Assembly: GCF_000337575.1 (NCBI RefSeq)
Contig: NZ_AOIM01000009.1
Span: 117,114 to 181,113 of the forward strand
Reading direction: 5' to 3'
DNA length: 64,000 bases
Source of the DNA: Natrialba hulunbeirensis JCM 10989
GTDB lineage: Archaea > Halobacteriota > Halobacteria > Halobacteriales > Natrialbaceae
Each line of letters starts with the position of its first letter. The stretch's first letter is position 1. The position numbers were made by a program, and so were the translations under genes. The notes beneath the pieces were generated by a model that made no database searches, was not told the origin of the DNA, and saw nothing but the letters and a program-made list of their open reading frames with translations. Shown one piece after another: positions 38,778 through 64,000 of the stretch.

Positions 38778-38852
38778 GCTCCGATGGTGTAGTCCGGCCA
38801 ATCATATTGCCCTCTCACGGCAATGACCTGGGTTCGAATCCCAGTCGGAGCA
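38778..38852 (+). tRNA. tRNA-Glu (anticodon CTC)
   Basis: All cloverleaf arms are visible. The acceptor stem GCTCCGA pairs with TCGGAGC (7 bp). The anticodon stem TTGCC/GGCAA encloses loop CTCTCAC with anticodon CTC, and the T arm reads CTGGG TTCGAAT CCCAG. CCA is not encoded. A tyrosine recombinase gene begins 165 nt downstream, so the 3' half of this gene is the likely attachment site of the following island. No second copy of its 3' end was found in the window. Confidence 0.93.
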
Positions 38853-39016
38853 CTCCAATCCCTTTCTCGTCTTGCGGTTTTGGCCTGTGGCTAACCTAAG
38901 GTGAATACGATGCTACAGGGCAAACACGTAATCGAACCCGTGTCACCCCGACGCCGTCTTGCGGTTCATGTTGTTGCCCCGGCAATTACGTTCGACGTAA
39001 GATTCAGGGGGCATTC

Positions 39017-40120
39017 ATGACCGATCTTGACGGTATCTCGGTCGTCACGGAACCATGCGAGGAATTGCTCAATGAACGTCAGCTATCTGACTATCGTTCC
39101 CAGCGTGAAGACTGTCTCAAATGGTTGCTCACATTCGGGAAGAACCCGGACAAAGTCAACGGGTATGCTTTCGAGACGGTGCGGGCCAGAGCATATCGGA
39201 TGGACATGTTCTATCGATGGGTCTGGGAGCAGGAGGGGCGCTATCTCGCAGACGTCTCTCATGAACACGCTGATGGGTGGATGGAAGAACTAGCCTATCA
39301 AGACAAAAGTACCGCTCACAAAGACAACTGCCAGAAGGCCGTTCAGATGCTGCTCAAATGGCGTCATCATAAACACGGTCTCGACAAATGGGAGCCAGAC
39401 ATTCGCTTCAACTCTAACGGCTCCTCGCAGCCCCGTGACTTCTTGACGCGCCAGGAGCGAAGTAAAATCCGAGAGGTGTCTCTCGAGTACGGCTCGATCC
39501 CGTCATATCAGAGCGTCACGCCAGAGGAGCGGGATCGCTGGAAAGCCTACCTCGCCCAGCGATTCGAAAAGCCGAAGTCAGAAGTAACGCCCGACGATTG
39601 GGACCGTGCCAACGGCTGGAAAATCCCATCGCTGGTCTTTGTCAGTCTGGACGCTGGACTCCGCCCGATCGAAGTTGCTCGAGCTACTACGGGATGGATC
39701 GATACTGATAACGAGGTTCTGCGTATTCCGAAAGAAGAGAGTTCGAAGAACAGAGATAACTGGATTGTTAGTATCCACACCCGTACAGCAGAGATGTTAG
39801 AACGTTGGCTCGAACAACGTGAAACGATATCCATGTACGACGATACTGACGCACTCTGGTTGACGAGGCAAAACAATACTTATCGGTCGCGTGCGCTCAA
39901 GCATCTCCTTCTTCGGTTGAGCGAGCAAGCTGGCATCGATACCGACGACCGACGCTTGAGTTGGTACGCAATCAGACATTCCGTAGGAACATATATGACC
40001 CGAGAAGAGGGATTAGCTGCGGCTCAAGCACAACTCCGGCATTCGAGCCCCCAAACGACGATGAAGTATGACCAAGTTCCCGCTGAGGACCGAAGAGATG
40101 CCCTTGATCGGATGGGTTAA
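39017..40120 (+). CDS. Tyrosine recombinase/integrase (copy 1)
   Basis: The 367-residue protein has an N-terminal core-binding domain and a catalytic domain with Arg in LDAGLRPIEV (near 214) and the second Arg in WYAIRHSVGTYM (near 319). His is in QLRHSSPQTT (near 342) and the nucleophile candidate Tyr in MKYDQVP (near 350). It is first in line after tRNA-Glu and so is the probable integrase of this island. It is clearly homologous to the 41452 recombinase, sharing SLVF-SLDA-LRPIEV and LSWY-IRHS-GTYM. The stop overlaps the convergent next gene. Confidence 0.92.
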   Translation: MTDLDGISVVTEPCEELLNERQLSDYRSQREDCLKWLLTFGKNPDKVNGYAFETVRARAYRMDMFYRWVWEQEGRYLADVSHEHADGWMEELAYQDKSTAHKDNCQKAVQMLLKWRHHKHGLDKWEPDIRFNSNGSSQPRDFLTRQERSKIREVSLEYGSIPSYQSVTPEERDRWKAYLAQRFEKPKSEVTPDDWDRANGWKIPSLVFVSLDAGLRPIEVARATTGWIDTDNEVLRIPKEESSKNRDNWIVSIHTRTAEMLERWLEQRETISMYDDTDALWLTRQNNTYRSRALKHLLLRLSEQAGIDTDDRRLSWYAIRHSVGTYMTREEGLAAAQAQLRHSSPQTTMKYDQVPAEDRRDALDRMG

Positions 40121-41382: not shown

Positions 41383-41451
41383 ATCCCAAACAAAATCCCG
41401 TAACCCAATCCACAAACAGACCTCTTCTAGGGGTCCCCGGAGGTGATTTGG

Positions 41452-42555
41452 ATGGATGAAATCGTCTCTGAACTCACAAGAGAAGTGATTGGTCCTCGAA
41501 AACTGATAATCTTGCGTGAGGATCTGAAAAGGTTCGAGACGTTCATGATTCAGGGTGGAAAGGCACCTAACCAGAGTGGACTTGCGGACTCAACTGTTAA
41601 CAACTATCTCTCTCGAATTGATCAGATATATCGAGCAGGTTGGGCAGTGATAGGGAAAAAACAGGTTCCCTTGACACCCGATATAGCTGATCAGGTTGAG
41701 GCATCCCTCGCAGAAGATCAGTTCAAAAAGTCGAATGGGGAGTCCTATAGTCCCTCGAGTAAGCGGAAATTCCAGAATACGCTTAAGAAGTATTTCGAGT
41801 ATCGTGCAGAGAACGGAGGAAGGAAATGGGAACCGGAGTACGACTTCGAGGAAACAGCATCACGTACGAGAGATTATTTCAAGCGTGACGAACGGTCAGA
41901 ACTTCGAGATGCAAGTATATCCCACGACCAACTTCCACATTACTCTTCGGTGAGTCCGGAAGAACGAGCGAGAACAAAGCGATACTTGGCACAGAAAACT
42001 GGGGTACCAAAAAAAGACATAACCAGGGAGATCTGGAACGAGCATCGCGAATCACTCAAGATTCCTTCGTTGGTCTTTACGTCCCTTGACGCCGCACTAC
42101 GACCAATTGAAGTCAACCAAAGCACTGAAGATTGGCTCCGATTAGATACTCAGGAACTGCATATTCCAAAAGAGAACTCTTCAAAAGGACGGGAAAACTG
42201 GCATGTCAGCCTGAGTTCCAAGACGGCGCAGATCAATAGAGAGTGGATGCAACAGCGCGACTGCAAGCCCAAGTACGACGGAAGAGACGAAATTTGGCTC
42301 AATCGCCAAGGGAATCCGTACTGCTCGAAAACCCTTTGTGATCTCCTCAATACGCTGCTCGAACAGACCGATATCGACACGAGTAATCGTGATCTGTCTT
42401 GGTACTCGATTCGCCACTCAACTGGAACATACATGACTGAGGTCGGGGATATGGCTCAGGCTTCAGAGCAACTTCGACATGATTCGTTCCAGACAACGAA
42501 GCGGTACTACCACTCTTCCGTCGAAGAACGGAGTAACACGTTGGAGGAAATATAA
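41452..42555 (+). CDS. Tyrosine recombinase/integrase (copy 2)
   Basis: ATG 41452 is preferred over GTG 41443 because a full Shine-Dalgarno GGAGGTGA (41439-41446) lies 5 nt before it, which is uncommon in the mostly leaderless genes here. The 367-residue protein keeps Arg in LDAALRPIEV (near 217), WYSIRHSTGTYM (near 320), His in QLRHDSFQTT (near 342) and Tyr in RYYHSSVEE (near 350). Same length and strong similarity to copy 1 show a duplication or a sequential insertion of related elements. Confidence 0.9.
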   Translation: MDEIVSELTREVIGPRKLIILREDLKRFETFMIQGGKAPNQSGLADSTVNNYLSRIDQIYRAGWAVIGKKQVPLTPDIADQVEASLAEDQFKKSNGESYSPSSKRKFQNTLKKYFEYRAENGGRKWEPEYDFEETASRTRDYFKRDERSELRDASISHDQLPHYSSVSPEERARTKRYLAQKTGVPKKDITREIWNEHRESLKIPSLVFTSLDAALRPIEVNQSTEDWLRLDTQELHIPKENSSKGRENWHVSLSSKTAQINREWMQQRDCKPKYDGRDEIWLNRQGNPYCSKTLCDLLNTLLEQTDIDTSNRDLSWYSIRHSTGTYMTEVGDMAQASEQLRHDSFQTTKRYYHSSVEERSNTLEEI

Positions 42556-43605: not shown

Positions 43606-43980
43606 ATGACGAAGGCATACTTCGAGGTCCCTGACGAGTGGACCGAAGCAGCAGATGAGATGGATGCATCTGTTGCAGCGTACTGCCGTAAGATGGTCAG
43701 AGCAGGACGTCGACAGTTCGGATACGATTACGAACCACACGAAGTCCCGGTTAGCCAGAAGACGCTCAAAACCGATGACCAAGTAGACCCTGGTGCTGAC
43801 GGCGTTTTGGAAGACTTCGTCCTCCGGAACCTATCTACTGAGACTGGACAGGATGAAGAGGATATCGCGGAGTTGCTCGAAGAGGAGATTGCAAGTGCGG
43901 CCGACCGGTTAGTTGAGCAAGGACAGGCAAAATATCGGCGATCACAGGGCGGTTGGCTCAAAGTGATTGAAGATGAATAA
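43606..43980 (+). CDS. DUF5805-like protein, partner of recombinase copy 3
   Basis: The 124-residue product starts MTKAYFEVPDEWTEAADEMD and has an all-helical, acidic composition with a basic middle (RKMVRAGRRQFGYDYEPHEV). It resembles, from memory, DUF5805 proteins that precede haloarchaeal site-specific recombinases. Its last codons overlap the start of the next recombinase (8 nt), so the two are coupled. It may be a recombination accessory or DNA-binding partner. Confidence 0.65.
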   Translation: MTKAYFEVPDEWTEAADEMDASVAAYCRKMVRAGRRQFGYDYEPHEVPVSQKTLKTDDQVDPGADGVLEDFVLRNLSTETGQDEEDIAELLEEEIASAADRLVEQGQAKYRRSQGGWLKVIEDE

Positions 43981-45055
43981 GTATGGAAAGCTTGAATTCG
44001 ATCGGGAATGGCATAAAATGCCGATTCAGAAGTATGAGACGTACAAGCGGGATCAACAGGATCTAACAGACACCCGACTCAGGCAGATTCGACTAAGTCT
44101 GATCAAATCCTCTGCGAGATCAGACTACGTCGCATGGAACGAATTTATCGACTGGCAAGAATCGATGACTACCGATGATGCCTGGCGCTTCTTAGACCAA
44201 CTACGCAACGCCGGACTCGCCGAGCGAACCGTTGAAGAGTATATGCGAATTGTCCAGTCTTTCCTCGCTATGATGATGACCCGGGGCGTCGTTGAGTCAA
44301 ATCCTATCGCATATGTCATTGACGAGGCTGAATTTGAAATCGAAGAGAGTTCACAACTCGAATTAACGGTTAGTCAACTCGGTAACTTCATAAAGTCTAT
44401 TCCTAAACCGCACTACCGAGCATCGGCACTACTACACGCTAAAAACGGAATTCGGAATGGTGAAAACAACAATATTGATCTACCCCATCTCCACCTCGAC
44501 CATCCCGACTATTATCGCTTCTTAGAAAAACGAGATATCGAACTCCACGAGCAAATTAAGGAGCGGCCAGACTCACTGTATATTCCGTCTGAGCCAACAA
44601 TTGGAGAGGAATACAACGGTGAAGTTCGGGGTGCAGGGAACAAACGAAAAAACGATACGATTATCCCAATTGATATGGAGACGAAGTTCATGCTCTTGAA
44701 CTGGTTAGCAGTACGCCCGTTGGCAGAGTATCCTCACCCACTCTGGGTAACTCAAGATAATACTAGGGTTCATCATCAATCGTTTCGAAGCTACATTAAG
44801 AACTGCGCGGTGGAGGCAGGCCTCATTGATGATACTGCTGACCGCAAATTTTCCGTTCACTGGTTCCGTCACTTTTTCACAACGCAATTAAGACCTGGGC
44901 ATGGAAACTACAGCGAGTATCTTGAACCAACCATGATAAAATACCTCCGTGGCGACGTTGAAGACGACATTATGGAGGTTTATACGCACGATTGGGGAAA
45001 TACGATTCGTGCAGAATACATCGATTCGATCTATCAGTTCGGCATTTATGAGTGA
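43973..45055 (+). CDS. Tyrosine recombinase/integrase (copy 3, divergent type)
   Basis: ATG 43973 lies inside the end of the DUF5805-like gene; a TTG at 43967 is an alternative. The 360-residue protein has a SAM-like N-terminal domain (YVAWNEFIDWQESMTTDDAW). The catalytic Arg is in KNGIRNGENNNI (near 160), the second Arg in VHWFRHFFTT (near 299) and the Tyr in RAEYIDSI (near 349). It is not closely similar to copies 1 and 2 and matches the haloarchaeal recombinase type paired with DUF5805. Confidence 0.88.
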   Translation: MNKYGKLEFDREWHKMPIQKYETYKRDQQDLTDTRLRQIRLSLIKSSARSDYVAWNEFIDWQESMTTDDAWRFLDQLRNAGLAERTVEEYMRIVQSFLAMMMTRGVVESNPIAYVIDEAEFEIEESSQLELTVSQLGNFIKSIPKPHYRASALLHAKNGIRNGENNNIDLPHLHLDHPDYYRFLEKRDIELHEQIKERPDSLYIPSEPTIGEEYNGEVRGAGNKRKNDTIIPIDMETKFMLLNWLAVRPLAEYPHPLWVTQDNTRVHHQSFRSYIKNCAVEAGLIDDTADRKFSVHWFRHFFTTQLRPGHGNYSEYLEPTMIKYLRGDVEDDIMEVYTHDWGNTIRAEYIDSIYQFGIYE

Positions 45056-45352: not shown

Positions 45353-47473
45353 TCAGACAGTTGCGTGGGGCTCACCGAAAGATTCAGCGAAGCGTTCTTT
45401 CTGTTCTGAATCTAAGTCCAATTTGAATTGATACTGATCTCCCGTCCATGTTGCACTCATGATCGATCGTCGATACCCAGATGGGTACTTCCGCGTCATC
45501 CCTGCCAACAGTCCTGATATTGTACTACTCCCATGTGTTTCGATATCGTATTCTTGCTCCATGATCTGCAGAAGTCCAGTTGTTTCAACCCAATCGTTTT
45601 CCTCCCACAAAATCCGCAGTAGTGTTTCCTGTTTCGTAGTAAGTCGATCGAAAAAGTTCGAAGGGACGTAGCCGCCAAACTCCTCAGAACCGTTTGGTTC
45701 GGGATCTTCTGGCTCTGTAGGTTCGATGGCCCACTCGTGAAGCGCAAAATCAATGAGTTGTTCCTGCCGTGTCTCAATCTCCGTTTTCCCGAACTGGTCG
45801 TAGTCAACAAGTTCGCGTTGGACGCGCAGTGCCGAAGAGGCATAATCCTTCTCGCGATCACCCTCTGCGTGTTGCTTTTTCTTGAACGGGAGATTTCCAT
45901 ATGAGCTGTTCCAATACCGACTGGCGATCGTGAGATTCCCTAATCGGTGAACGTATTCTGGAAATTCGTCGCTCAGATCTTCTGGGATATGTTCTGGATC
46001 AACCTTCCGGGCTAAGATGTGCTCAACCTGGAAATCGGTCGAGAGGATCTGCGACAAGTTCTCTGCAAGTTCCTCATCGACATCCGCCTCGAGTTGGCGG
46101 TTGTAATGGTAAAGGAGGAATTTGATATCTCTGCTCGAGTGGGACTGATAAAATTCCGGATCGTGAAGGTTGCGAGCGAACCGTTCGTCAGAAGTATAGT
46201 AAGCAGTAATTCGATCAAGTTCAGCACAGATTCCCTCGTGATCAATCGATGCATCAGTGTGGATATCATGTGCGAGCCGGACGATCTTCCCACGGCCAGT
46301 ATTCGACCGACGGCTGTCGATCGCATACATTCGGAAAACCAGTGTTTCGCATGCTTCGACAATCTTGGCGAACTTCTCAGCTTCATCATCGCCGTATCGC
46401 AAATAGGCAGCCATCAAAACCGGCAGAACGTTGGCCAATCGCCCCAACTCGAGGAGTCTACGTAGAGAGGTTTCAATCGACTCAGGCCGATCACTTGGTG
46501 AGAATATCGCGGCAAACGCCGCTGCCGCCTCTCTAAGATCACGAACATAGGAGTCGATCTCGGTCTGGATTTCGTCATATTCCCCAGATCGGTAGGAATT
46601 CCGTAGCCGAGACTTCAGAGTCTCGAAACTCTGGAAGTATTCATCCGAATTGTAGCCATTATACATCCCCCAGTGAAATCGTTGGATGCTGTCTTCGTCG
46701 AAGTCGGTAACCCGTTCGTGTCCAGTTGTCAGCACGAACAACTCGCGATAGATACTTCCAAATCGTTGTTTGATAATTCCTTCCAACGCCCCAGTTTCGC
46801 TCGATCTCTCATCCATATACATGAGGAAGCTTTTCGTTTTGTCGAGCGTCGAAAGCGGTTTTCCACGGTCGTTGAGACTTTCGAAGATCGAGGCTGCTTC
46901 AGATTCGTTGTCGATCTCTACGACGTTGATGCGAAGATCATATCGGAGACGTTCAGCGAGGTCCCTGACTACGGATTCATCGTCAAGCTTCTCGAACCGT
47001 CGCTTGAAATAGTCGTAGGCATTGTTGAGACGTGTTTGAGAGGGAGTTTGCGGATCAATCTCCGAAACACCGAACAGACAGTCTCGGAAGTACTCCTCGT
47101 CTTGGTCTTGTGGAAGCAAGCGTGGGCGCTCTTTCACAGGAGTGATGAGATTGTCCTCTTCGAGTGTCTCAGCAACGAACTCATCGTACTCTGCTGCTGC
47201 GTGGAGGAAGATCAACGCCGAGGTTAACCGCTGTTGGCCATCAACAACATCGAAGACTGTGAATCGGCGACCACGGTCGGTTCGAAATCGCTTCTGCTGT
47301 TCGTCGAGAATGATGTTGCCAAAGAAGTGGGTGGATTCGTCAGGGAGATACAACAGATCCTCGAAAAGCTCCTTCAACTGCGACTGTTTCCAAGAATAAC
47401 TCCGTTGATAGCTTGGGATGTCGAATAACCCATCCTTGAGCAAGGCATCAACATCAACAGTGCGGGTTTCCAT
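45353..47473 (-). CDS. GmrSD-like DUF262/DUF1524 restriction protein with winged-helix tail
   Basis: The 706-residue protein begins with a DUF262 (ParB-like) domain whose signature DVVDGQQRLTSALIFL lies near residue 80; in GmrS this NTP-hydrolysing site powers restriction of modified DNA. A long helical middle leads to the DUF1524 HNH-type nuclease with VEHILARK (near 487), HRLGNLTIA (near 510) and later Asn/Lys residues. The last 90 residues (KQETLLRILWEENDWVETTG) form an added winged-helix-like domain. It probably acts as a type IV, modification-dependent nuclease against phage DNA. Confidence 0.85.
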   Translation of the reverse strand: METRTVDVDALLKDGLFDIPSYQRSYSWKQSQLKELFEDLLYLPDESTHFFGNIILDEQQKRFRTDRGRRFTVFDVVDGQQRLTSALIFLHAAAEYDEFVAETLEEDNLITPVKERPRLLPQDQDEEYFRDCLFGVSEIDPQTPSQTRLNNAYDYFKRRFEKLDDESVVRDLAERLRYDLRINVVEIDNESEAASIFESLNDRGKPLSTLDKTKSFLMYMDERSSETGALEGIIKQRFGSIYRELFVLTTGHERVTDFDEDSIQRFHWGMYNGYNSDEYFQSFETLKSRLRNSYRSGEYDEIQTEIDSYVRDLREAAAAFAAIFSPSDRPESIETSLRRLLELGRLANVLPVLMAAYLRYGDDEAEKFAKIVEACETLVFRMYAIDSRRSNTGRGKIVRLAHDIHTDASIDHEGICAELDRITAYYTSDERFARNLHDPEFYQSHSSRDIKFLLYHYNRQLEADVDEELAENLSQILSTDFQVEHILARKVDPEHIPEDLSDEFPEYVHRLGNLTIASRYWNSSYGNLPFKKKQHAEGDREKDYASSALRVQRELVDYDQFGKTEIETRQEQLIDFALHEWAIEPTEPEDPEPNGSEEFGGYVPSNFFDRLTTKQETLLRILWEENDWVETTGLLQIMEQEYDIETHGSSTISGLLAGMTRKYPSGYRRSIMSATWTGDQYQFKLDLDSEQKERFAESFGEPHATV

Positions 47474-48039
47474 AGCATATACATCTCAACCGGGTACAAA
47501 TTAGCTTTCGGAGACTAGTTTTAGTACCTCACGATACGTCATCAGTTGAGTCGTTCTGAGGCTTGATTTCCGTTGTAGATTCCAGCAATTGGGTCATCTC
47601 TTCCCAAGGAACAGCAAGTAATTGTCACTGTCGACGGAGGTCAGTTGCCGGTGCAACAGCGTTTCCATAGGTGAAGTACTGATTCTGGACTTCATCCGCA
47701 CGATGGGGCGCATTTCAGGAATACATGGTCCAATCCACTGTGAATGCGATGACGTCTTGGAGCGAGGAACATGTCGCTCAAAACATTACGCCGGAACAGC
47801 CGTGACTACAATCTCGAGGAATCCAGCAGTGGTGTACTGGTCAGCTGAGCTTAAGAAGAACCGAGGCACTGTAAGTCGACGAAGTATGGCGATTCACCAA
47901 AGCGTGTAAGTTCGAAATTAGATGTTTTTATCCCTCGATATCAGTGGAAGCATAATTGTATGCTTCTATGTAATTATGAAGTTACAACCAAATCTAAGAC
48001 AGAACTGGTATCAGGCCAACCGATACCAACGTGGTGGTA
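47474..48039. other. 566-nt stretch with decayed coding remnants
   Basis: No complete gene is seen. On the minus strand, reading from about 47620 toward 47535, a frame reads QLLAVPWEEMTQLLESTTEI and ends normally with TGA, but a stop codon just upstream cuts it off. It looks like the C-terminal rest of a lost gene. Plus-strand frames near 47700-47900 are short. The AT-rich part near 47925-48030 may carry the promoter of the next gene. Confidence 0.4.
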
Positions 48040-48384
48040 ATGACTAACAATCTCGTTGAACTTGTAGATCATTTTGATCTACTCGGAAATAGACGTCGTT
48101 TACTCGTTATTGGCTATCTTTCTCTAGTTGATCAACAAGCTTCCGTCGAGGTCCGAGATCTTGCCCGTGTCATCCGGAGTATCGAGTTAGAGACACCCCC
48201 TCATCAGATAAAATCTAAAGAGTACGAATCTGCTTATAACGGACTCATTCAAACACATCTTCCAAAACTTGCGGCAAACGGAGTTATCGAATATGATGAC
48301 TCAAGGAAGACGCTTTCTCCTACGTATCGCATATACCAATATTCCCTTCTCGTACACTTTGTTCTATATTTCACACAAGTATAA
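48040..48384 (+). CDS. Small winged-helix protein (DUF7344-like)
   Basis: ATG 48040 is preferred to two GTG codons just upstream. The 114-residue product (LVELVDHFDLLGNRRRLLVI, then LPKLAANGVIEYDDSRKTLS) has the same winged-helix pattern as the 26092 gene, with a hydrophobic C-terminal helix (YSLLVHFVLYF). It may be a regulator for nearby defence genes. It faces the CARF regulator end to end with 23 nt between stops. Confidence 0.65.
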   Translation: MTNNLVELVDHFDLLGNRRRLLVIGYLSLVDQQASVEVRDLARVIRSIELETPPHQIKSKEYESAYNGLIQTHLPKLAANGVIEYDDSRKTLSPTYRIYQYSLLVHFVLYFTQV

Positions 48385-48407: not shown

Positions 48408-49046
48408 CTACCTTGTCTCCAAAAATACCCGGCCACTATCTGTGACAACCACTGTTTTCGTACGGCCTTTTGCCTGTGTTTGGACGAAACTATTTTGCTC
48501 TAAGCTATTTACGTGGCGGGCGATCGTACTCTTTGATTTGGCAAGTTCGTCAGCAATATCGGTGATGGATAGTGGTGTATTCAATTCAATTAAGTCCATC
48601 AGTAGTTCTTTCTCAGCACCTGTTGTGCTTCCTTGGAGATTTAATTTAGGGAGACGACGTACACTACTGTCAATATCTCCTACCTGAAGTATCGTATCGA
48701 TGTAGTTTTCTGTTGAAAAGGTAGCGACCGTTAAAGGAAACAAGAGTTCCCGAGCGCCACCTCCGAGAATAACGACAGTATCGCCCTTTGCTGCTTGGAT
48801 GAGATCTGCACAATACAGAACGCTTTCGACAAAATCAGTATGTGGGAGATGCTCGGTAGTCAAGTCAAAATCTGGAACAACCTGTGTCAAGATTTGTTTA
48901 ACTTCCTCGAAAGCATCTTCTCCCCTACTGGAACCACTTGATGGTTGTAGCAATATGACTTTGTCTTCAGATTCTAGGCCTTCGCCCAGAACTGGTCGAA
49001 CAACCCGTCGACTATCGAACCCCAAGGGTGCCAGATATGTTCGCAT
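48408..49046 (-). CDS. CARF-domain winged-helix regulator (Csa3-like)
   Basis: ATG 49046 yields MRTYLAPLGFDSRRVVRPVL, the expected start of the Rossmann-like CARF fold; ATG 49058 would add four residues. The 212-residue protein has the CARF loop VVILGGGARELLFPL (near 92), which in known members binds cyclic oligonucleotides. A C-terminal winged helix follows (PLSITDIADELAKSKSTIAR, near 162-182). This is the architecture of Csa3, the regulator of CRISPR loci, but no CRISPR array or cas gene is in view. It lies divergent from the six-gene helicase operon and is its likely regulator (inference). Confidence 0.85.
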   Translation of the reverse strand: MRTYLAPLGFDSRRVVRPVLGEGLESEDKVILLQPSSGSSRGEDAFEEVKQILTQVVPDFDLTTEHLPHTDFVESVLYCADLIQAAKGDTVVILGGGARELLFPLTVATFSTENYIDTILQVGDIDSSVRRLPKLNLQGSTTGAEKELLMDLIELNTPLSITDIADELAKSKSTIARHVNSLEQNSFVQTQAKGRTKTVVVTDSGRVFLETR

Positions 49047-49483
49047 GTTGTGATACATGATCTGTGGCCTAGTTACTGTTCCGAAATAGTGCAACAGTAG
49101 GCACGAAATTCGCACAAATTAAGACCAACATCAGAGACATAGGCGATCAGATCAGGGTTAGTCGTCCAACAGTGTTCTACGATACTGCAACGGTGTCTGA
49201 ACTGTTGCATTCCCGATAGCTATTTGGTATCGGCGGGACAATTTGTCAATTGCTCGCATACACCGCTGTCGGTTGGCACCTTCTCCGACACGGTTAGTAA
49301 CAACTATATTGAAATATAATTTACCCGATGGTTTTATGGTGGTCTGGTGAGTAGGATAATCTAATCGCATCCGTCCGTAGAGGCCTAAGACGGCCAATAT
49401 GGGGTAGATACATCTACCATATCTGGTGCGAGTATCGACGTCCATCCCACAATCGACGTCGATATAGATTCCCAAGCAAACCC
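49047..49483. promoter_or_regulatory. Control region between CARF regulator and operon
   Basis: The 437-nt divergent spacer contains GGTAGAT-AC-ATCTACC (49403-49418), a perfect 16-bp inverted repeat with outer ATGG/CCAT similarity. ATCGACGTC occurs twice (49434-49442 and 49452-49460), 18 bp apart; the second is part of the 12-bp palindrome ATCGACGTCGAT (49452-49463). GATATAG at 49462-49468 could be the operon TATA box, giving an almost leaderless mRNA. AT-rich TATA options also lie near 49302-49324. These are good operator candidates for the CARF protein. Confidence 0.5.
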
Positions 49484-50350
49484 ATGCAAGCCCCACCCGA
49501 TTCAAGCGAACCCACGCTTGCGAACTTCATCGGGACACGAGACTCGTTTCTCGTGATCCGAGATCCACAACTCGCAAAAATGGGTTCACAAGCACGTGCA
49601 CAACTACGATCGCTACCGCTCCTCTCGGAGTTCGGTCTCAACCGAGTCGCACATCCAGGTATCTACGATAACGGGTTGCGACTTACAGAGTACCAACTCA
49701 TACCAAACGAGGACCTTCGAGCGGGCGGCGTGACCGAAGCAGAGTTCCCGCTGATTCACTACGTCAGTCAGGAGATGCTCACGGGACAACTACGGGACAA
49801 GGAGAGTGTATACGACGACCAAGATGTCGTTCGACGACTTCTTCGTAAGCGACCCGAGGGTGTCCCATACGTACTCGTTACCGACACGAGTACACCTCGG
49901 ATGCCACGTCATACACAGAAACCGGGGAAATCGTTTATCGACGAGTTTGAGTGTACCGTCACCGAATATAAGGGATTGCTAAAGCGGTACCTGCAGCATA
50001 ACCTTGACTCGGATTTGTCTCTCTCGTCGACGCAAAACCTGTACTTCCACCAGATTTCGTCCCATCACAAACAAAGGGGACTCGAAGCGGGGTCAATTCC
50101 TGATCTCTTCGATTACACGCAGATCCCAGCAGATAGTCCAGCGTGGGATCCGCTTTATTACATCATTCGTGAGGATGTTGATCAGGTGCTCGAGGACTAC
50201 TCTGAACGCATTCGAGAAGCCCTCCGTTCGTGGACTGAACACGGGCCAACCCAAAAAATCGCGAACAGCATGCTCGACATGCTAGAGCGGGAAGATTTCG
50301 AAGAAGAAGGACTTGACGACTACCGATATCGGCATCAGGAAAACATATGA
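49484..50350 (+). CDS. Operon gene A: unknown 288-residue protein
   Basis: No family was recognised. The product is acidic and soluble, with conserved-looking segments FIGTRDSFLVIRDPQLAKMG near residue 16, EFPLIHYVSQEMLTG near 93 and YFHQISSHHKQRGLEAGSIP near 188. No membrane helix or nucleotide-binding loop is visible. It is the first gene of a six-gene operon and overlaps gene B by 4 nt (ATGA), so its product probably works with B to F. A sensor, adaptor or nuclease with an unrecognised fold are all open. Confidence 0.75.
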   Translation: MQAPPDSSEPTLANFIGTRDSFLVIRDPQLAKMGSQARAQLRSLPLLSEFGLNRVAHPGIYDNGLRLTEYQLIPNEDLRAGGVTEAEFPLIHYVSQEMLTGQLRDKESVYDDQDVVRRLLRKRPEGVPYVLVTDTSTPRMPRHTQKPGKSFIDEFECTVTEYKGLLKRYLQHNLDSDLSLSSTQNLYFHQISSHHKQRGLEAGSIPDLFDYTQIPADSPAWDPLYYIIREDVDQVLEDYSERIREALRSWTEHGPTQKIANSMLDMLEREDFEEEGLDDYRYRHQENI

Positions 50351-51270
50351 GTACAACGTATCCCCCGGCAAATACGAAGCCGGACAAGCTACTAACCGGG
50401 TTCATCTCGGTACGAGCACCGGAACTCAAACACCTTTACGGAGCCATTCAGGGCGCAACCAGTGTTGATGAGCTAACCAACAAATTTGGTCGTCCAACCG
50501 AAGATGGTCTTGAGACTGATCACGTTGAGGAGACAGTACGGTTTTTGAACACAGTTGATCTTGTTGAGAGCCCCTCAGGAGACATCAGGAATACGGTCGA
50601 ACGAATCAACGAGCATCAGTTCAAGGGACTCCCTTTCGAACCGCGTCTCTTATATCACTGTAATCAGCAGAAGGGACGACAAACACACTTTGCTGCTATC
50701 TACCCCGCGCTGCTAACCGAGGGGGACAGGACGGTGAGTGCTAAACGAGACGATTTACGGACCATCCTGAAACGCAAGACAGACTATGAATTTGCCTGGA
50801 AGGACGAAAAAATCGACATGTGGTTAACCCTTTGTGAACAACTTGGATTGGTCACGGAGACGGAAGATAGTATCGTCCTAAGTCCCTGTCGTGCCTTGTT
50901 CCACGACGCTCTCATCCTCTCGCCAACAGATACTGATAAAGAACCAAACTATGATGATGTAGAGGTCAAGAACGGGGAGTTCCGGCGAGCGCTCGATTGG
51001 ATCAACGACAACCTCTTTGCGGTGTACGAAGAGCGAGCGGGTACCTCAAGAGTACATCCCGCAATCGCAGACGTACTTCGGAACATGGAGGACGACGGCG
51101 TAATTTCACTATCAAGTCCAGGTGACTCACAGAACGCAGTCGAGATCCCGCCTGAAGATCTTGATGATGATGTTCGCGGCAAACGGCGCGATGCGACCCG
51201 CGTCTCAATTCATTCACGTCCAGACAAAACGGCCTACCAATACCCTCTCACCCAACCCCTTACCCAATAA
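50347..51270 (+). CDS. Operon gene B: winged-helix-like protein, DpdG-like by position
   Basis: The 307-residue product seems to hold repeated winged-helix units: ELKHLYGAIQGATSVDELTN with HVEETVRFLNTVDLVESPSG, then MWLTLCEQLGLVTETEDSIV, then VHPAIADVLRNMEDDGVISL. It has no signal or membrane helix. It precedes a large P-loop ATPase gene, as DpdG precedes DpdH in Dpd clusters; the match is by order and size only. The stop codon shares its last base with the ATG of gene C. It may recognise DNA for the complex. Confidence 0.7.
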   Translation: MSTTYPPANTKPDKLLTGFISVRAPELKHLYGAIQGATSVDELTNKFGRPTEDGLETDHVEETVRFLNTVDLVESPSGDIRNTVERINEHQFKGLPFEPRLLYHCNQQKGRQTHFAAIYPALLTEGDRTVSAKRDDLRTILKRKTDYEFAWKDEKIDMWLTLCEQLGLVTETEDSIVLSPCRALFHDALILSPTDTDKEPNYDDVEVKNGEFRRALDWINDNLFAVYEERAGTSRVHPAIADVLRNMEDDGVISLSSPGDSQNAVEIPPEDLDDDVRGKRRDATRVSIHSRPDKTAYQYPLTQPLTQ

Positions 51271-54200
51271 TGAGCAATAACGTTCAGCGATCCTCGACCA
51301 CCAACGAGATGGACCGTTACTGGGACGACGACGAGGTCGATCACTTCATCACTTCGGAGGCATACACGGAGAAGAAGACTCCTGAGCAATTTGAAGAGAC
51401 TCACGTCGACATCGATCGGATCTACGCCGACACACTCACTCCTCTCGGAATCTCAGGAAACTTCGTTACTCAGGAGGACGTGCTTGAATCAATAACGGCG
51501 TCAACAGTTGGAGGACCAGATAGCGATGATGATCCTGATCCGAATCGGATCTTCATTGTGCGTGGGGAACCTGGCTCTGGAAAGAGCCAGCTCTGTGAAT
51601 GGACGAAGTACCAAATCAACGGCTTTGGTGAGAACGACGATGGTGTTGAGGACTACGTAGCGCTTCACGTGTCTCGAAGCCGAACCCGCATGGAACAGAT
51701 TATTAATGTTCTCACCGAACCACTTGATGTTGACCCTGACGTTAGGAACATTCAGGGAAGCGACCCCTATGAGCTAGCTGAACCTATTGTGGGTCTTCTT
51801 CGCGGCTATTGGTCTAACAGCCTGCTAACTGATGAAGAATTATCTGAACTTACCGAAAAGAGGGACGATGAAACAGATCTACGAAACATATTTGCCGAAA
51901 ACATCCAAGAGTATCAAGATGATTTGCAGTCCCGTGAAGAGAATCCAGATTTTAAGCTTCTCACTAGAAAAGACTACCGGAAGTTGCACTTATCCCTAGA
52001 TATCGGTGATAAGCTACGTGATGATAAAGAATTGATTTTTCCTGCTTTAAAGAATCAAGCACATGAGTACCTCTCAAAAAACCTCGTGGGGGACTTCAAG
52101 GAGCAACTCAAGGAATACTCCCAATTATATCAAGAGAGGGGAATTCGTCCAGTACTTATTTGTGAAGATCTCACTACGTTCAGTGTACTAAAGGAACAAC
52201 TCCTTGACCATATTTTCGAACTCAGTAGTAGTCACTACGATATTGTACTTGGATGGACGATTGGATGGGAAGATGATAATATTGAGGATGCATTAAACCG
52301 GTCAAACGCTGCCACCTATATGGAGGGGCGTTCAGAGGGGTATCTGACGATGAGCGATGAAGATACGCACGAAGCGTATTTCCTTGATGATGATGTTTCG
52401 GTAGAACTCACACGCTCATACCTCAATGCTATTAAACGTCACTCCGATACCAAACGTGAATCAGATGATATTGCCAATGCATTTGATGGCTTGTATCCTT
52501 TCAATGAACGATTTATTCACCTCGCGTATCGACAACTGAATGATAAAGGGAGTGACCGCAAGACGCCGAGGCTACTTCTGCTTCGAGTTGTGAAACATTG
52601 CCTAAAATCGACTTTGCCCCCCTACGAGGCGATGAAGTCGAATCCATTCGTGGATACGCCTACATTTGAGGTGGACATGAAGTATGACCAGATATATCAA
52701 GATGTTAGCCGCTGGTATGGTGCCCCCGTTGAGGACGGTGTTGGTGTCAAGAGAGGTATCTTCGAAGCCTTCGGGATCAAAATCCCCGACAGCGACGAAG
52801 CACTTGTGAAAGGGGAGTATGTCATATTTGATAAAGGAAAGGGAAGTGCTGTTCTCGATAAGATTCAAAACCCGCCTACACCCGAGTACGAGGTCATGGA
52901 GAGTGACGAAGGAGATGATGAGAAGCAAGAAGACAGTGGGATTGCTGGAGAAGGTGAAGAAGAAGAAGTGATTGATGTTATCGACAAGCCTGAACTGTCG
53001 GAAGAAGAGCGTAAGCGGCAGCGTGAGGTCCAAGAGTTCCAAGATTGGATAACCAATGGAGAGGGTTATGACAGTTCTGATACACTTCATCGAGGCGCAG
53101 TTGAAACACTCGAACGGTGGCATGAACCAACACGCCTCGGTAACCCAAACGCATCAACACGTTATGTGAGCAGTATCTACTATGCTGGTGGAGATCATAT
53201 TCCGGTATCCATTCAGGGCGACCAGCAACGCCAAGCGAATGTTGATGTAGAACTCGAGTGGGGGGCGGAACACGAAGATCTCTACACACCTATGCTTGAG
53301 TATGGCCTCTTTGGAATGTTCGATGCAACCGACACTAACTTCGATCAGTTGCGAGCGTGGGCAGACACAAACGTTGCGCAGTTCAAGCGGGAGATGCGCA
53401 AGGAGATCGAAGACAACCTCAAGGGATTAACCATCGAAAAGATGCTGGTGCTGGGGCAACTCTTTCTCATCAATGCCGCGAAGGGGACGAAAATCGAACA
53501 AGATGGGATCTCTACAGAACTCATCTTTGAGGAGTATAATCTGGATCAGCCGTACGGAAAGCCGATAGTTGATGAGTTTGAACGTGATAGCGCGTTCTGG
53601 GAGGCGTTCACGAATCTAGCCAAATCCTCGAGCGATATTAGCGACCTCATCGAGGGATTCTTCCTCCTCAAGTCGAACGTTGTCGACTACGATCGCCTAG
53701 CAGAAGCGCGACGTGAAGTTGCGGCCGACTTTGATGCCCACGTCGATGATGCAATGATGATCGATGCCGGCGAGATCCCAGATGCCTACAAGGTCGGCTC
53801 GACACGAAAACAAGCGAACACAAAGGTTTCGACGCTATTTAGTCGCATTTCGGACTATGCGACCGAACTTCAACGTCTTACTCCTGAAGAAGACGGCTCC
53901 CACATCCAAGAGGATTTAGAGCCGGTCGAGCGATGGTATGACAGCAGTCATACAGTCGACGATCTCGTCGAGTGGTTCGAGACGCTCTACAACTGCGCCG
54001 GGACGATGAACGTCACCACCAAGTCGAGTTACGAAGACGCCTACGAGATACTCACCGAATCGCCCGAGGAAGTAAATCTCATGTCCTTCCGTGAGGATGT
54101 GGAGGGATTCCGGAACATGGACGATGCGACTGGAACGACACTCATCGCACGACTACATGATTTCGCTCGTAGCCGCCACGAGCAGAGTGCTTGGGAGATA

Positions 54201-54350
54201 TACGAGGTGCTTGATTCACTTATCGATGAGCTTCAGGATCAGGACCACTCCACTGGCGTCGATCTCGAACACCGGATTCAACAAATTAACGAGTACACCG
54301 AGTACGAACAGAAGCGGCAGGAAGTCATCGAAGTCACGGAGGATTTGTAG
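51270..54350 (+). CDS. Operon gene C: large P-loop ATPase, DpdH/BrxC-like
   Basis: The 1026-residue protein has Walker A in VRGEPGSGKSQLCEW (near residue 100). The Walker B-like strand RPVLICEDLTTF (near 293-304) has Glu-Asp in place of the usual Asp-Glu. An acidic hinge (residues 545-570) separates this STAND/AAA-like part from a long helical C-terminal half. Size and order fit large ATPases of Dpd (DpdH) or BREX (BrxC/PglY). Base composition in 51.8-52.9 kb is more AT-rich than in genes E and F, which suggests a mixed origin. It starts on the last base of gene B and ends 1 nt before gene D. Confidence 0.8.
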   Translation: MSNNVQRSSTTNEMDRYWDDDEVDHFITSEAYTEKKTPEQFEETHVDIDRIYADTLTPLGISGNFVTQEDVLESITASTVGGPDSDDDPDPNRIFIVRGEPGSGKSQLCEWTKYQINGFGENDDGVEDYVALHVSRSRTRMEQIINVLTEPLDVDPDVRNIQGSDPYELAEPIVGLLRGYWSNSLLTDEELSELTEKRDDETDLRNIFAENIQEYQDDLQSREENPDFKLLTRKDYRKLHLSLDIGDKLRDDKELIFPALKNQAHEYLSKNLVGDFKEQLKEYSQLYQERGIRPVLICEDLTTFSVLKEQLLDHIFELSSSHYDIVLGWTIGWEDDNIEDALNRSNAATYMEGRSEGYLTMSDEDTHEAYFLDDDVSVELTRSYLNAIKRHSDTKRESDDIANAFDGLYPFNERFIHLAYRQLNDKGSDRKTPRLLLLRVVKHCLKSTLPPYEAMKSNPFVDTPTFEVDMKYDQIYQDVSRWYGAPVEDGVGVKRGIFEAFGIKIPDSDEALVKGEYVIFDKGKGSAVLDKIQNPPTPEYEVMESDEGDDEKQEDSGIAGEGEEEEVIDVIDKPELSEEERKRQREVQEFQDWITNGEGYDSSDTLHRGAVETLERWHEPTRLGNPNASTRYVSSIYYAGGDHIPVSIQGDQQRQANVDVELEWGAEHEDLYTPMLEYGLFGMFDATDTNFDQLRAWADTNVAQFKREMRKEIEDNLKGLTIEKMLVLGQLFLINAAKGTKIEQDGISTELIFEEYNLDQPYGKPIVDEFERDSAFWEAFTNLAKSSSDISDLIEGFFLLKSNVVDYDRLAEARREVAADFDAHVDDAMMIDAGEIPDAYKVGSTRKQANTKVSTLFSRISDYATELQRLTPEEDGSHIQEDLEPVERWYDSSHTVDDLVEWFETLYNCAGTMNVTTKSSYEDAYEILTESPEEVNLMSFREDVEGFRNMDDATGTTLIARLHDFARSRHEQSAWEIYEVLDSLIDELQDQDHSTGVDLEHRIQQINEYTEYEQKRQEVIEVTEDL

Positions 54351-54351
54351 A

Positions 54352-55182
54352 ATGTCTACCAGTCAATCATTACCCACAGTCGTAGAAGCCCTCGAGGACA
54401 AGGCCAAGAAGCACAAGCAAGCGGAAAACACCCAGTTCCACGTCTCAGTGGCACGGCACAATATCCGCAAGGTCAACAGCGAACTCAACGATCTCGTGAA
54501 GAGTCTCGAAGATCTTCAGTACTACAAAGAGGTTCACGAGGGCGCGTTCGATGGCTCGGCACCGACGATGACTAGCAGTGCCGCACAGACTGCTGAGAAG
54601 GCTGTCGAGACGACACAAGAGGACCTGCTGGAGAACGCACAGAGTGGTGGTTTCGCCGACGACGAAACCGAACTTGGATCGGACGATGACAGTGGTGATC
54701 CGGAGGTTGAGATCACCCCAGAGGTACAGACGCAGATCTCGCAGATCCGGTCAGCGAAGAAACAAGTTGATGACGTCACTGAGAACATCGAGGGGCAACT
54801 CAAGTCCAAACGAGAGAAGTGGAGTACAAAGGTCAGTGCTGCGGAGGAACTTCAGAAGATCCTCGGGGGACAGAACAAGGACTTTTCGCGCACGCTCAAC
54901 CATATGCATCAACTCCTGACCCGTGAGTTGATGGACTCGAGCGGGTCCGCATCGAACTTCGTCAGTCAGTGGAACAAAGCAGTAAACAATTGGGAAAAAC
55001 ACCAATCGCTCCAAAGCTTCGACGATTTCCAAGAAAAACACGACCTCTCTGACTCGACTGTCGAGGACGTTAAGACACTCAGCCAGTCCCAACAACTCAC
55101 ATTAGCTGATGTCTCGCTCGAAACCGTGGAGGAGATGAAACGTGTTGACGAACTCGAGTCGGCAGTCGAACTGAGCCTCTAA
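54352..55182 (+). CDS. Operon gene D: 276-residue coiled-coil protein
   Basis: ATG 54352 lies one base after the gene C stop; the longer open frame upstream lies inside gene C. The product is nearly all helix, with coiled coils near residues 20-65 (FHVSVARHNIRKVNSELNDL) and 125-165 (TQISQIRSAKKQVDDVTENI) split by an acidic loop (DDETELGSDDDSGD). It is probably a structural adaptor linking ATPase C with helicase E. It occupies the place that DpdI has between DpdH and DpdJ; no sequence match is claimed. Confidence 0.75.
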   Translation: MSTSQSLPTVVEALEDKAKKHKQAENTQFHVSVARHNIRKVNSELNDLVKSLEDLQYYKEVHEGAFDGSAPTMTSSAAQTAEKAVETTQEDLLENAQSGGFADDETELGSDDDSGDPEVEITPEVQTQISQIRSAKKQVDDVTENIEGQLKSKREKWSTKVSAAEELQKILGGQNKDFSRTLNHMHQLLTRELMDSSGSASNFVSQWNKAVNNWEKHQSLQSFDDFQEKHDLSDSTVEDVKTLSQSQQLTLADVSLETVEEMKRVDELESAVELSL

Positions 55183-55184
55183 CG

Positions 55185-58100
55185 ATGAGAGATCCCGTAA
55201 CCCGCGCAGAGCAGATGCAAGAGGCCTACCACGATTATTTCATCGGTCGTGGTGGACGAGCAGCGCGCAGCGTCGCCAACCGACTCGCCGATGGTGAAGA
55301 CGACCTCACGGGCATGCGTGGTCCGTACCTTCAGGCTCTTGACATCCCAAACTGGAGCGGCCGTTCCTGGGAGTCCTTTGCCCGATCGGTGAACCTCGAA
55401 CCACATATCCGTCGTGCCTTCACGAAAATCGGTTTCGAGAGACTCTACGACTTTCAAGAGCGCAGCGTCGAGGCTATCCTCAATGGCGACGACACCGTCA
55501 TAACGGCTGCAACAGGACGTGGGAAGACCGAAGCGTGGCTCATTCCGATCCTCAATCGTATCCTTGAAGACAAGCGGTACGGCGAGGAAAGCGACGACAC
55601 GAGTGTCAAGGCTACGCTCATCTATCCTACGAAGGCGCTCGCACAAGACCAACTGAAGCGCCTCCTCGGGTACATCTATCGTATCAACAATCAACTAACG
55701 TCTAAACAGCAGATCACGGTCGGGATCTACGATGGTGATACCCCACGAAATGTCGGAGAGTCTGGTTCCGAGGGGTACCTCAACGCGACCTTCCGGCACT
55801 TCGAGTGTCCGGGATACAATGACGAACTCGACAAGTGCCAAGACTGTGGTGGAGGAGTCCGTATCCGGAATACCGGTTCTCGGTTCAAACTCATCCCCGA
55901 GAAAGCACACTGTGAGGACGACGATCCGAACGACGTCCCACTCGACTTCCTACGCCTGACGAAAAACGACATCCTCGAGGACGGAGTTGACATCTTGCTC
56001 ACCAATCCCGATACGATAAACTACCGTCTCATCAATACCAACGCCGAAGACGAACATGAACGGTTCGTCTACGAACCCGAGTTCCTCGTCTTTGACGAGG
56101 TCCACACCTACGATGGCCTATTTGGGAGTTACACGTCGACGTTGATGAAGCGGATTCAGTCGCTCCGAGAAAAACGCGATGTCGACGACCTGCAACTCAT
56201 CGCGAGCAGTGCGACCGTCGAGAATGATGTCGAACTGTTTCAGAAAGTCAGTGGTGCCGTAGACGTCAACCAAGTGAGCGAGTCGCCTCGCGATCTCAAT
56301 GGTGACGTTCCGGAGGGGGTTCCAGAAGCGCTGATGTCGGGCAACCTGTCCGTCGACCACATTCTACGTGCGACAGCTGTGCCGGATGATGTGGTCTCGG
56401 GTCTCGTCGCGTTCGACTACACGCTGGAGGATGCGTCAAGTTACGACCGCGACCGCCGAGAGACACTGGTGAGCGACGCTCTCTTTGATCACCTTACCGA
56501 AGTCGAGGAGGATCCCGGTGCACAGGTCGTTCGCTACGTCCATCAGTTGCTGTACGATGAGCCGCTCACGCGGTCCCAGTTGCACGACGAGTTAGAAACG
56601 GAACTGGATCTCGATACCGATGAGGCTTCGACGCTGGTGTCGAACGTTCGGACCTTGGGTGAGTTCTCCGGTATGTTGGAGAACCGGAGCCATGTGTTTT
56701 CGTGGCCAATAGACGGCTTCTACACGTGTCCAGCATGCGATGCGATGTACCGCTCGCCACAGGACGACTGTCGTGAGTGTGGGTTCGACTTCGTCACACG
56801 CTCTACCTACTGTCGGCACTGTAGCGACGAGCACCTCGTTGCATGGTACTGTCCGAGTTGCGACCAACTAGAGCCCTATACGCCGACCGAGCACGGAACG
56901 ATTGATCAGGACGATGAATATGTCTGTTACCGGTGTGAGGAAGCGCGCGACGACGTCGTCCAGATGGTACGTACGACGTTCCAGCCCTTTCTCGAGTGTC
57001 TCGACTGTGGACACCAAACCGAACGAACCGCGATCCGTGACTGCCCCGAGTGCAATTCCAAGACCGTCAGGACGGGCGAAAAGACGTTTACCTGCGTCAA
57101 TCCGGAGTGTGAATCGACTCACGAGGACGAGCGGGTTTGTGACAACTGTGACGGAACAGACTTCAGACTCGCTACCGTTGACGGTCAGTTCGACTGTCCG
57201 GACTGCGGCGAGACATACGAAAATCCCGAGAAGGCCCCTAACCAGTGTGTCGATTGTGATTCATCACTCACTTCAACGAGGTATGTTCCGTGGACCTGTG
57301 GGAACAACGACTGTAGCCGGATTCGCTTCGAGGACACTCTCGATCGATGTGACTGTGGTTCGACCTCGTTCGTAAAGCGCGGACTCTTCGATATCCATCA
57401 GGACCAGCACTGTCGATCGTGTGATACGGCGTTCCTCGGCAATGAGGGGTGCGATTGCGACGAACCGGATCGCCATCCGCGGACCGGCCACCATCAGGCA
57501 TACAAGACAATCGATACCCGTGGTCAGATTCACACGATGAGTTCGCAGCCGTCGGCCGTCCCATGCCCGCATCCCTACGCCCGATACGAAATCGGTCGTC
57601 GGTTCGATGAACTGATGCGGGGCCCGAGTAACCTCGCTGTGACAACTTCACAGTATATGCTGCGCCGTGTCGCCGATGAAGAAGGCCAACAGGCGGCGCA
57701 ACTCCTGTCGTTCGCCGATTCCCACCGCGACATGAAGGAACTCAGTCGGGACTTTTCGGAACCCGAGGTCGAGACCCTCCTCGATCAACTGCTGATCGAG
57801 AGTGTGTCTTCTCGTGGTGACGGGAACAACTGGACACCGTTCAGTCAAGTCCTCGAAGACGCCGCGGACATCGCCGACGAGGTAAACGATGCACTGGAAC
57901 CGCCGCGAGTCGCGAGGAGTGTCGAATTTGATCTGAAGTCACGGTTGAAAGACCAGCCTCGGAAGCGCTGGGACGACGATGATGCCCTTTGGGATCGACT
58001 CATCCGACGTGCACTCGAGCACACCTACAGTCAGCGTTTTGGCGAGCGCGATGGTTCTCTCTCCGAAGAAGGACTGCTTGACATTCGATTTGCTCCGGGT

Positions 58101-60713: not shown

Positions 60714-60739
60714 CCAACATCCCACACCAATTGCCACCG

Positions 60740-63700: not shown

Positions 63701-64000
63701 CACCACTACGAACCGAATCTAGTAGACGAGGTTGAGGACGGACACGACCATCTCAATTCACTCGTGGATCGCGGTATTCTGCGCCGCGTCGAAGAGGATG
63801 GGAGTCGATATGTGATGGTCGACGAAGATGCGCTCGAATGTGCTATCGTCGATAACGTGACGCCGACGAACTACAGTCAGACCCGAGAAACATACGCGAC
63901 CTCGGTCGAAGTCGCTCTCGGAACGGCACCCGATGATGTCGTCAAATTCACGGCGACGATAGAGGACCGTTCGGACTTTTCGCATCCACACTACTCCTTG
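60740..64000 (+). CDS. Operon gene F: second giant SF2 helicase, paralogue of E (3' end outside window)
   Basis: The frame from ATG 60740 stays open to the last base, giving 1087 residues. It aligns with E from the start (KGPYLQVLDLPQMSDTPWET). It has motif I ASTGRGKTEGWL (near 119), motif II FDEIHEYSE (near 301), GASATVEN (near 343), many zinc ribbons between 505 and 757 and the RecA2 beginning MLSFADSQSDMKEL (near 847). The window ends before the RecA2 motifs V and VI and any MZB domain. It starts 26 nt after E, the only real gap in the operon. Two such helicases in a row parallel the DrmA/DrmB pair. Confidence 0.88.
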   Translation, partial: MDFDPIELANSMRASYAEHYAGSQPQRAVKSLVSRYNDGLGESLKSDLPGFIRTKGPYLQVLDLPQMSDTPWETFADNHDLHNDLTETFSEAGFRSLYEFQESAVESVLEDHHTLLTASTGRGKTEGWLIPILQFITEAKEGQHEDHPPDSVKCVLTYPTKALAQDQLKRLIDYLFTLNRGRPSDEQVTVGIYDGDTKRRDPDELAYLQTTFQYFDCPCDECDSSLTVSQRDDGSFVVEPMVEHEDDLAFDFIKVTRDAIVESPADILLTNPDTINYRLFNVNGNDEQQRFVAEPKYFVFDEIHEYSELFGSFTSTLMRRYIRERQELNGYDSESDDDLTIVGASATVENKRTVFQRINPFVDPDVAVIEEDERTLNAPFPVDIPNDFISAELTDEELRSGNTDAAKRALDAAGVEAGSKDVDKRLYEHLVEDGGGPLEFVRGIYAALRETPLRPVGLRDRLIDETGLSESEAEIVVANFMTIGEVSDILERRAHLFSWPLDGYYTCLNCGTVYDTPQSSCTECDHHFVTKLSLCNECGEESLESWFCPNCERLVPHTVTSEEGRFEYFQRRECQCETVDGETPEMVRVYWRPYYECTDCGERQKIDHQHDCSDCDAAMVLDDSMEKHVCTNPDCDEELTVEEALEPECHSCHSTALEPLADEEVQYCIECGDVYEDPEGQECTTDDCNGDLTPKRFLGWTCSDPACEEVYFGNPPASCSCGKRKLVRSALFDISMVDECQSCGHEFLPNGPHDCNCDCLEISRRAKGYGNYRMVDDNGRVREASQFPGGLPCYHEGRRETYAKNRRYESMLRGPANAAVTTGRYLLRSLADRDDPSAFGESKMLSFADSQSDMKELERNFREPEESFFFDQLFVESVRSVSDGSGWATLSDVIERGVNDAHQYEEELAGEGGNIPRMYEQLTGYDQSVDEYLTEELLSRALEGKYSRRYRSNQLSDEGLINVQLATDIADLSEGEHELIVEVLGQNHHYEPNLVDEVEDGHDHLNSLVDRGILRRVEEDGSRYVMVDEDALECAIVDNVTPTNYSQTRETYATSVEVALGTAPDDVVKFTATIEDRSDFSHPHYSL

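Follow-up and report, generated by a model that had tools for sequence, protein, structure and literature searches.

A CARF-wHTH regulator of the Csa3 type and the operon divergent from it, found in a 64,000-nt window of Natrialba hulunbeirensis JCM 10989 (contig NZ_AOIM01000009.1, positions 117,114 to 181,113), are best explained, with a probability of about 0.72, as a BRIGADE-like defence system with its own dedicated, autoregulated and ligand-gated transcription switch. Regulators of this kind usually control CRISPR immunity. The explanation draws on computed features, namely the family and fold of the regulator, its conserved pocket residues, its conserved linkage to the operon, conserved sites at fixed positions and a conserved RNA structure. 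A dimer of the CARF-wHTH protein would bind inverted repeats of the GTTGCA-N6-TGCAAC type at two sites, the first over the promoter region of its own gene, which would provide autoregulation, and the second in the stretch that separates the promoters of the two divergent genes. Held in the CARF pocket, a small ligand would alter DNA binding or its effect and so set the expression of the operon, and a conserved folded leader at the start of the transcript may give a second level of control. Against this explanation counts the behaviour of Saccharolobus Csa3a, for which the accessible parts of PMC8699464 and PMC8844856 describe non-specific binding of its palindrome and no effect of cA4 on binding.

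The regulator gene is as follows.
48408-49046, minus strand: CARF-wHTH regulator of the Csa3 type, 212 aa, assigned from profiles, fold, and alignment of the start and pocket.

The open reading frame at this place is real. An alternative longer frame with a GTG start extends to 49115, and the ATG at 49046 is the likeliest start because the homology to Csa3 begins at that methionine. The CARF part is matched by the Pfam profile Csa3_N (E=1.9e-14), the wHTH part is also matched in the Pfam search, and the whole reaches 80.6 bits with NCBIfam TIGR01884 (Csa3, cut-off 60.2) and E=4.6e-86 with the PADLOC profile CARF3--CARF. When the single sequence is compared with the PDB, only weak matches are obtained, and Csa3 is found once a profile is used (6w11, 2wte and 6wxq, E about 3e-11). 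The AlphaFold2 model has a mean pLDDT of 93.7, and the PDB folds closest to it are those of Csa3 (2wte, Z 19.5; 6wxq, 18.9; 6w11, 18.2), aligned over 196-207 residues at 18-19% identity. Judged by sequence profile and predicted fold, the protein is thus a Csa3-type CARF-wHTH regulator, as the sequence-only reading had recognised. It has no match among 50,697 phage records.

The divergent operon, on the other side of the intergenic spacer, contains the following genes.
49484-50350, plus strand: first operon gene, 288 aa, no family found.
50347-51270, plus strand: second operon gene, 307 aa, no family found.
51270-54350, plus strand: ATPase, weakly DpdH-like (E=2.8e-9), 1026 aa.
54352-55182, plus strand: fourth operon gene, 276 aa, no PADLOC or NCBIfam family.
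55185-60713, plus strand: YprA-type helicase 1, DruE/DpdJ-like, 1842 aa.
60731-64000, plus strand: YprA-type helicase 2, 1819 aa in full, continuing beyond the window.

The best PADLOC models of the two helicases are DruE and DpdJ, in line with the ARMADA/Dpd-like YprA helicases of BRIGADE, usually two in number; for helicase 2, whose place in a tree bears on assignment to BRIGADE Type I or Type II, DruE3 scores 102.5 bits and DpdJ 102.8 bits. On the contig, the genes 3' of helicase 2 encode a PLD protein, DpdA, a second TGT and a BrxD-like ATPase. The PLD protein passes the cut-off of PLDc_2 (27.7 bits against 27) and represents the BRIGADE nuclease, whereas 7-deazaguanine genes are represented by the TGT and by DpdA (NF041059, 275.6 bits, cut-off 200); related loci also encode QueD, QueE, FolE and QueC. 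This gene content, with a pair of YprA-type helicases, a PLD nuclease, DpdA and another TGT, makes the operon BRIGADE-like, and the system is predicted to modify DNA with 7-deazaguanine. What had been called the helicase operon can be named accordingly. For the first operon gene, a structure prediction from 9 sequences reaches a mean pLDDT of 53.9. In the accessible part of PMC12458937, BRIGADE itself is found only in halophilic archaea.

The regulator family (PADLOC PDLC01852) occurs at 54 places in 51 of 293 genomes of the order. Across the full set of 54 neighbourhoods, it faces the first operon gene of a BRIGADE-like system in 17, cas6 in 30, and neither in 7; the 30 cas6-facing loci carry the Cas10d of type I-D. 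Conversely, the first operon gene is present in 24 of the 293 genomes, and the CARF gene accompanies it in 17. This association, with the CARF gene adjacent to the first gene and divergent from it, is complete in the close group, in which the first gene is at least 71% identical (12 of 12 loci), partial in the distant group at about 38-47% identity (5 of 11) and absent from the one locus at 26% identity. The CARF gene is also adjacent in eight of eight named GTDB loci, five of which repeat genomes already counted, and further CARF-BRIGADE loci are carried on plasmids of Salinigranum marinum (L129) and Haloferax alexandrinus (L131). Haloarcula vallismortis is another haloarchaeal host of the system. 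Since six of the 11 distant loci do without it, the CARF protein is not essential to this type of system. The earlier view of a CARF regulator serving a non-CRISPR operon is thus supported, as 17 of the 24 genomes with the first operon gene have the CARF gene beside it and 13 of those 17 are without Cas1. An association with CRISPR loci only, which that view had named as its refutation, is not what is found, because 17 loci face the operon; yet relatives of the gene do occupy I-D loci.

Some neighbouring observations concern annotation and gene remnants. In L129 and L131, the regulator bears the annotation csa3, 'maintenance of CRISPR repeat elements', and the retrieved stretches contain no annotated cas gene. 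On pHME132 of Haloferax mediterranei (L130, 12001-12351), a CARF remnant consists of the wHTH half only, at 65% identity, and no BRIGADE genes are annotated nearby.

The spacer between the two divergent genes (49047-49483) is 437 nt long, as had been read from the sequence, and holds four candidate elements.
49075-49098, no strand assigned: candidate operator site 1, ACTGTTCCGAAATAGTGCAACAGT, 29-52 nt upstream of the CARF start codon.
49186-49209, no strand assigned: candidate site 2, TGCAACGGTGTCTGAACTGTTGCA, in which the half-sites of site 1 recur, about 275 nt before the first operon gene.
49332-49337, plus strand: TTTTAT, candidate TATA box of the operon, placed from spacing and alignment.
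49363-49480, plus strand: leader RNA (model R1) with four helices, between the TTTTAT element and the first start codon.

At every close locus, the stretch from the likely operon promoter to the first gene includes a structured RNA that shows compensatory changes. Its fold consists of a closing helix P1 (CGCATCC/GGRTGCG) with two hairpins inside, and of a hairpin with the loop CATCCCACA. In 15 sequences, 86.8% of the cells pair, against 24.6-38.2% when the structure is slid along the alignment. Nine pairs are changed on both sides, compared with 3.9 after shuffling, and the covariation score is 0.196 compared with 0.142, neither value being equalled in any of 500 shuffles; this covariation is support rather than proof because related sequences can exceed shuffles without any structure. 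The structure was adjusted on these data, and the held-out Salinigranum plasmid, which matches the model with 109.1 bits, is the cleaner test. Of the 293 genomes, 13 are matched by the model; 12 of these matches are exactly the close BRIGADE loci and the thirteenth is weak (E=9e-4). No significant match is obtained at the distant BRIGADE loci or at the four I-D loci tested. The leader is unmatched up to E=5 by the 4227 models of Rfam.

Such a leader invites a further, speculative and unlikely reading in which infection is sensed in two stages and without CRISPR. The CARF protein would answer a nucleotide made by something other than Cas10, for example cyclic di-AMP or a product of the BRIGADE base chemistry, and the leader would be a new riboregulator, perhaps binding a 7-deazaguanine precursor. 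If the leader did sense such a precursor, the restriction functions would be made only once self DNA could be marked. DAC, the cyclic di-AMP synthase family, is present in all 17 CARF-BRIGADE genomes. DAC is a housekeeping enzyme, so this presence is expected and does not single out cyclic di-AMP.

When the spacers of the 12 close loci are aligned, all of them show a near-invariant inverted repeat, ACTGTTNC...GNAACAGT, and the CARF start is 29 or 30 nt away from it. This repeat spans 18 bp with the core GTTGCA-N6-TGCAAC, a core shared, at nearly equal distance, by the distant BRIGADE loci and by the majority of I-D loci. With at most 3 mismatches in 12 and within the range -29 to -42, the core is found in 12/12 close, 4/5 distant, 19/30 I-D and 0/5 other loci, leaving 11 I-D loci and one distant BRIGADE locus without it in that range. 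Random segments of the same loci give means of 0.04, 0.02, 0.23 and 0.025, respectively. The best matches have on average 2.0 mismatches in close, 2.6 in distant and 2.3 in I-D loci, against 4.2, 4.3 and 4.6 in shuffled sequences. As the motif was derived from the close loci, the I-D, distant and held-out loci are the fairer tests, and site 1 is present with 0-1 mismatches in the held-out L109, L112 and L113 and on the Salinigranum and Haloferax alexandrinus plasmids (L109, L112, L113 and L129 being further close loci outside motif discovery). These counts suggest that BRIGADE and I-D CARF loci share one type of putative operator.

All 12 close loci have site 2, with 0-2 of 12 positions mismatched, and one further locus, L113, has lost it. 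Site 2 lies 109-111 or 120-122 nt beyond site 1 in the 12 close loci; these two spacing classes are about one turn of DNA apart, and three of the four loci of the long class are near relatives. Site 1 would occupy the position expected for the promoter of a gene with a short leader. Direct control of the operon through site 2 is uncertain because of its distance from the operon start. A genome-wide search allowing at most 3 mismatches gives 63 places, against 95 for the reversed control, so that a regulon call from the motif was rejected. A scan for bacterial promoters and terminators gives results close to the shuffled expectation.

The conserved blocks of the spacer might instead serve other proteins, such as TFB/TBP or another regulator, with the CARF protein acting elsewhere. 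Archaeal promoters do lie within the same stretch, and two BRIGADE-like loci without CARF (L089 and L092) have a TFB-like gene directly upstream of the first gene and in the same direction. However, the inverted repeat accompanies the CARF gene, at the same distance, into I-D loci where the partner gene is different, which leaves this reading quite unlikely.

The proposed switch also supposes a ligand, and the pocket of the CARF protein can be compared with that of Csa3. The GGxR(E/D) pocket is retained in the alignment, so that the loss of the GGxRE pocket named earlier as a refutation is not observed. In the full-length CARFs, G9, G96, G97 and D124 are invariant (49/49) and R99 is found in 48/49, counts that leave out the partial or divergent L059, L066 and L069. 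G97 and R99 align with Gly96 and Arg98 of Csa3, which are cA4 contacts according to the accessible part of PMC8844856, and motif 2 of cA4 binding is thus present; D124 is aligned adjacent to, not precisely at, Glu122 of Csa3. Motif 1 is incomplete: G9, F10 and D11 are retained and position 14 is Arg, as in 17/17 BRIGADE CARFs and 22/29 I-D CARFs. In the part of PMC8844856 that is accessible, loss of Phe14 abolished cA4 binding in Csa3 and Phe14 is found in six of ten Csa3 homologues. Its absence thus counts against binding of cA4 and, since only 6/10 homologues have it, not against membership of the family.

These residues bear on the proposal, made in the sequence-only reading, that a cyclic oligoadenylate (cOA) from a type III CRISPR system or from a CBASS-like synthase binds the CARF protein, induces the operon and couples two layers of defence. 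The proposal fits a fold nearest to Csa3, cA4-bound forms included, and the Gly and Arg of motif 2, and SMODS proteins exist in the order, over the cut-off in 29 of 293 genomes. The sources that it proposes are not supported. The Cas10 palm (PF22335) is found in 0 of 293 genomes of the order and 0 of the 17 CARF-BRIGADE genomes, in a search that was positive in 5 of 14 named control genomes. SMODS is over the cut-off in 3 of the 17 and absent from this genome by profile search, mCpol is found in none of the 17, this genome included, and PF09455 (Csx1_HEPN) is absent from this genome. No conserved GGDD is found in the Cas10d of the 30 I-D loci, and type I-D is not expected to produce cOA according to the accessible part of PMC10212523. 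A type-III-like activity of Cas10d was considered and set aside, the GGDD string occurring only in L074 with no counterpart in the other 29 of 30. Together with the Arg that replaces Phe14 in all 17 BRIGADE CARFs, these results make the coupling of two defence layers by cOA distinctly unlikely; a signal from the Cas10 or type III route is itself unlikely here, and a cOA synthase of a type outside those searched is possible. On balance, the earlier interpretation as a whole is partly supported.

The surroundings of the locus have the following features.
38778-38853: tRNA-Glu gene.
39017-40120, 41443-42555 and 43967-45055: three consecutive tyrosine-recombinase-like genes, of which two pass the Pfam cut-off and the third is a weak match.
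45353-47473, minus strand: GmrSD-type (DUF262) protein with PADLOC HEC-06 and Orf5 matches.
48031-48384, plus strand: DUF7344 protein, convergent with the CARF gene.

At the tRNA-Glu gene, the G+C content drops from 0.64 to about 0.5 and the integrases come next, and a 38/40 copy of the 3' end of the tRNA, which is not a tRNA gene, lies about 60 kb downstream on contig C9 (about 215820-215859, window coordinate 98707-98746). The CARF/BRIGADE locus is thus probably part of a tRNA-Glu island. A DUF262 protein is also encoded near the Haloferax alexandrinus CARF-BRIGADE copy. The window holds no CRISPR repeats, as had been noted; an array scan that recovered the I-D array as positive control found none. 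The absence of cas genes, also noted, is less certain, the gene-by-gene scan having covered the part of the window beyond position 36000. The genome itself is not CRISPR-free, having two Cas1 genes, and at the end of contig C2 an I-D locus (L070), cut by the contig end, has a second CARF-wHTH paralogue facing cas6d.

That the regulator is a stray from type I-D, beside the operon by chance and mainly controlling CRISPR, would agree with this paralogue and with the 30 of 54 places that face I-D cas6 and have the operator core in common, but it is very improbable given the spacing of 436-447 nt kept in 12/12 close loci, the single clade formed by the close-group CARFs among the I-D CARFs (support 100/100; five distant CARFs are not firmly one group, and the tree and the spacer analysis leave out the partial matches L067 and L068) and the presence of Cas1 in only 4 of the 17 CARF-BRIGADE genomes.

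With a dedicated switch as the preferred explanation, a Csa3-type regulator has apparently been carried between type I-D CRISPR and a defence based on DNA modification, its putative operator seeming to move with it. It can thus be tested whether one signal controls both. The question is also raised of what CARF regulators sense in an archaeal order in which no Cas10 cyclase is found, and the conserved leader RNA offers a concrete new target. The candidate inverted repeat at BRIGADE and most I-D CARF loci and the leader RNA predicted from covariation are what is new here: neither a CARF regulator with BRIGADE nor a BRIGADE leader RNA was found in the accessible open-access literature, supplements aside.

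Among known systems, the locus resembles BRIGADE as described in the accessible part of PMC12458937 in its halophilic archaeal host, its pair of YprA-type helicases, its PLD protein and its genes for DpdA and TGT, as well as in the preQ0 genes of some relatives. It is unlike published BRIGADE in its regulator, the main text of that paper having CARF only in its reference list. The haloarchaeal I-D loci with a CARF-wHTH gene facing cas6 share the PADLOC regulator family and the operator core, whereas the partner operon is different, the spacer is mostly 124-182 nt instead of about 440 nt, and the leader model has no significant match in the four tested. Like Csa3a and Csa3b of Saccharolobus/Sulfolobus, the protein combines full-length CARF and wHTH parts (Z 18.2-19.5) and keeps the glycine and arginine of cA4 motif 2, and Csa3a also has an 18-bp palindrome near a promoter (CAPPa, TCCC-N8-GGGA, in the accessible part of PMC8699464). 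Unlike Csa3, the BRIGADE CARF has another candidate operator sequence, a non-CRISPR locus, Arg for Phe14 and a host in which no Cas10 is found. MM_0565 of Methanosarcina mazei, although encoded at an I-B CRISPR locus, is likewise a CARF-wHTH dimer affecting a non-CRISPR gene, the casposon cas1, according to the accessible part of PMC7465815.
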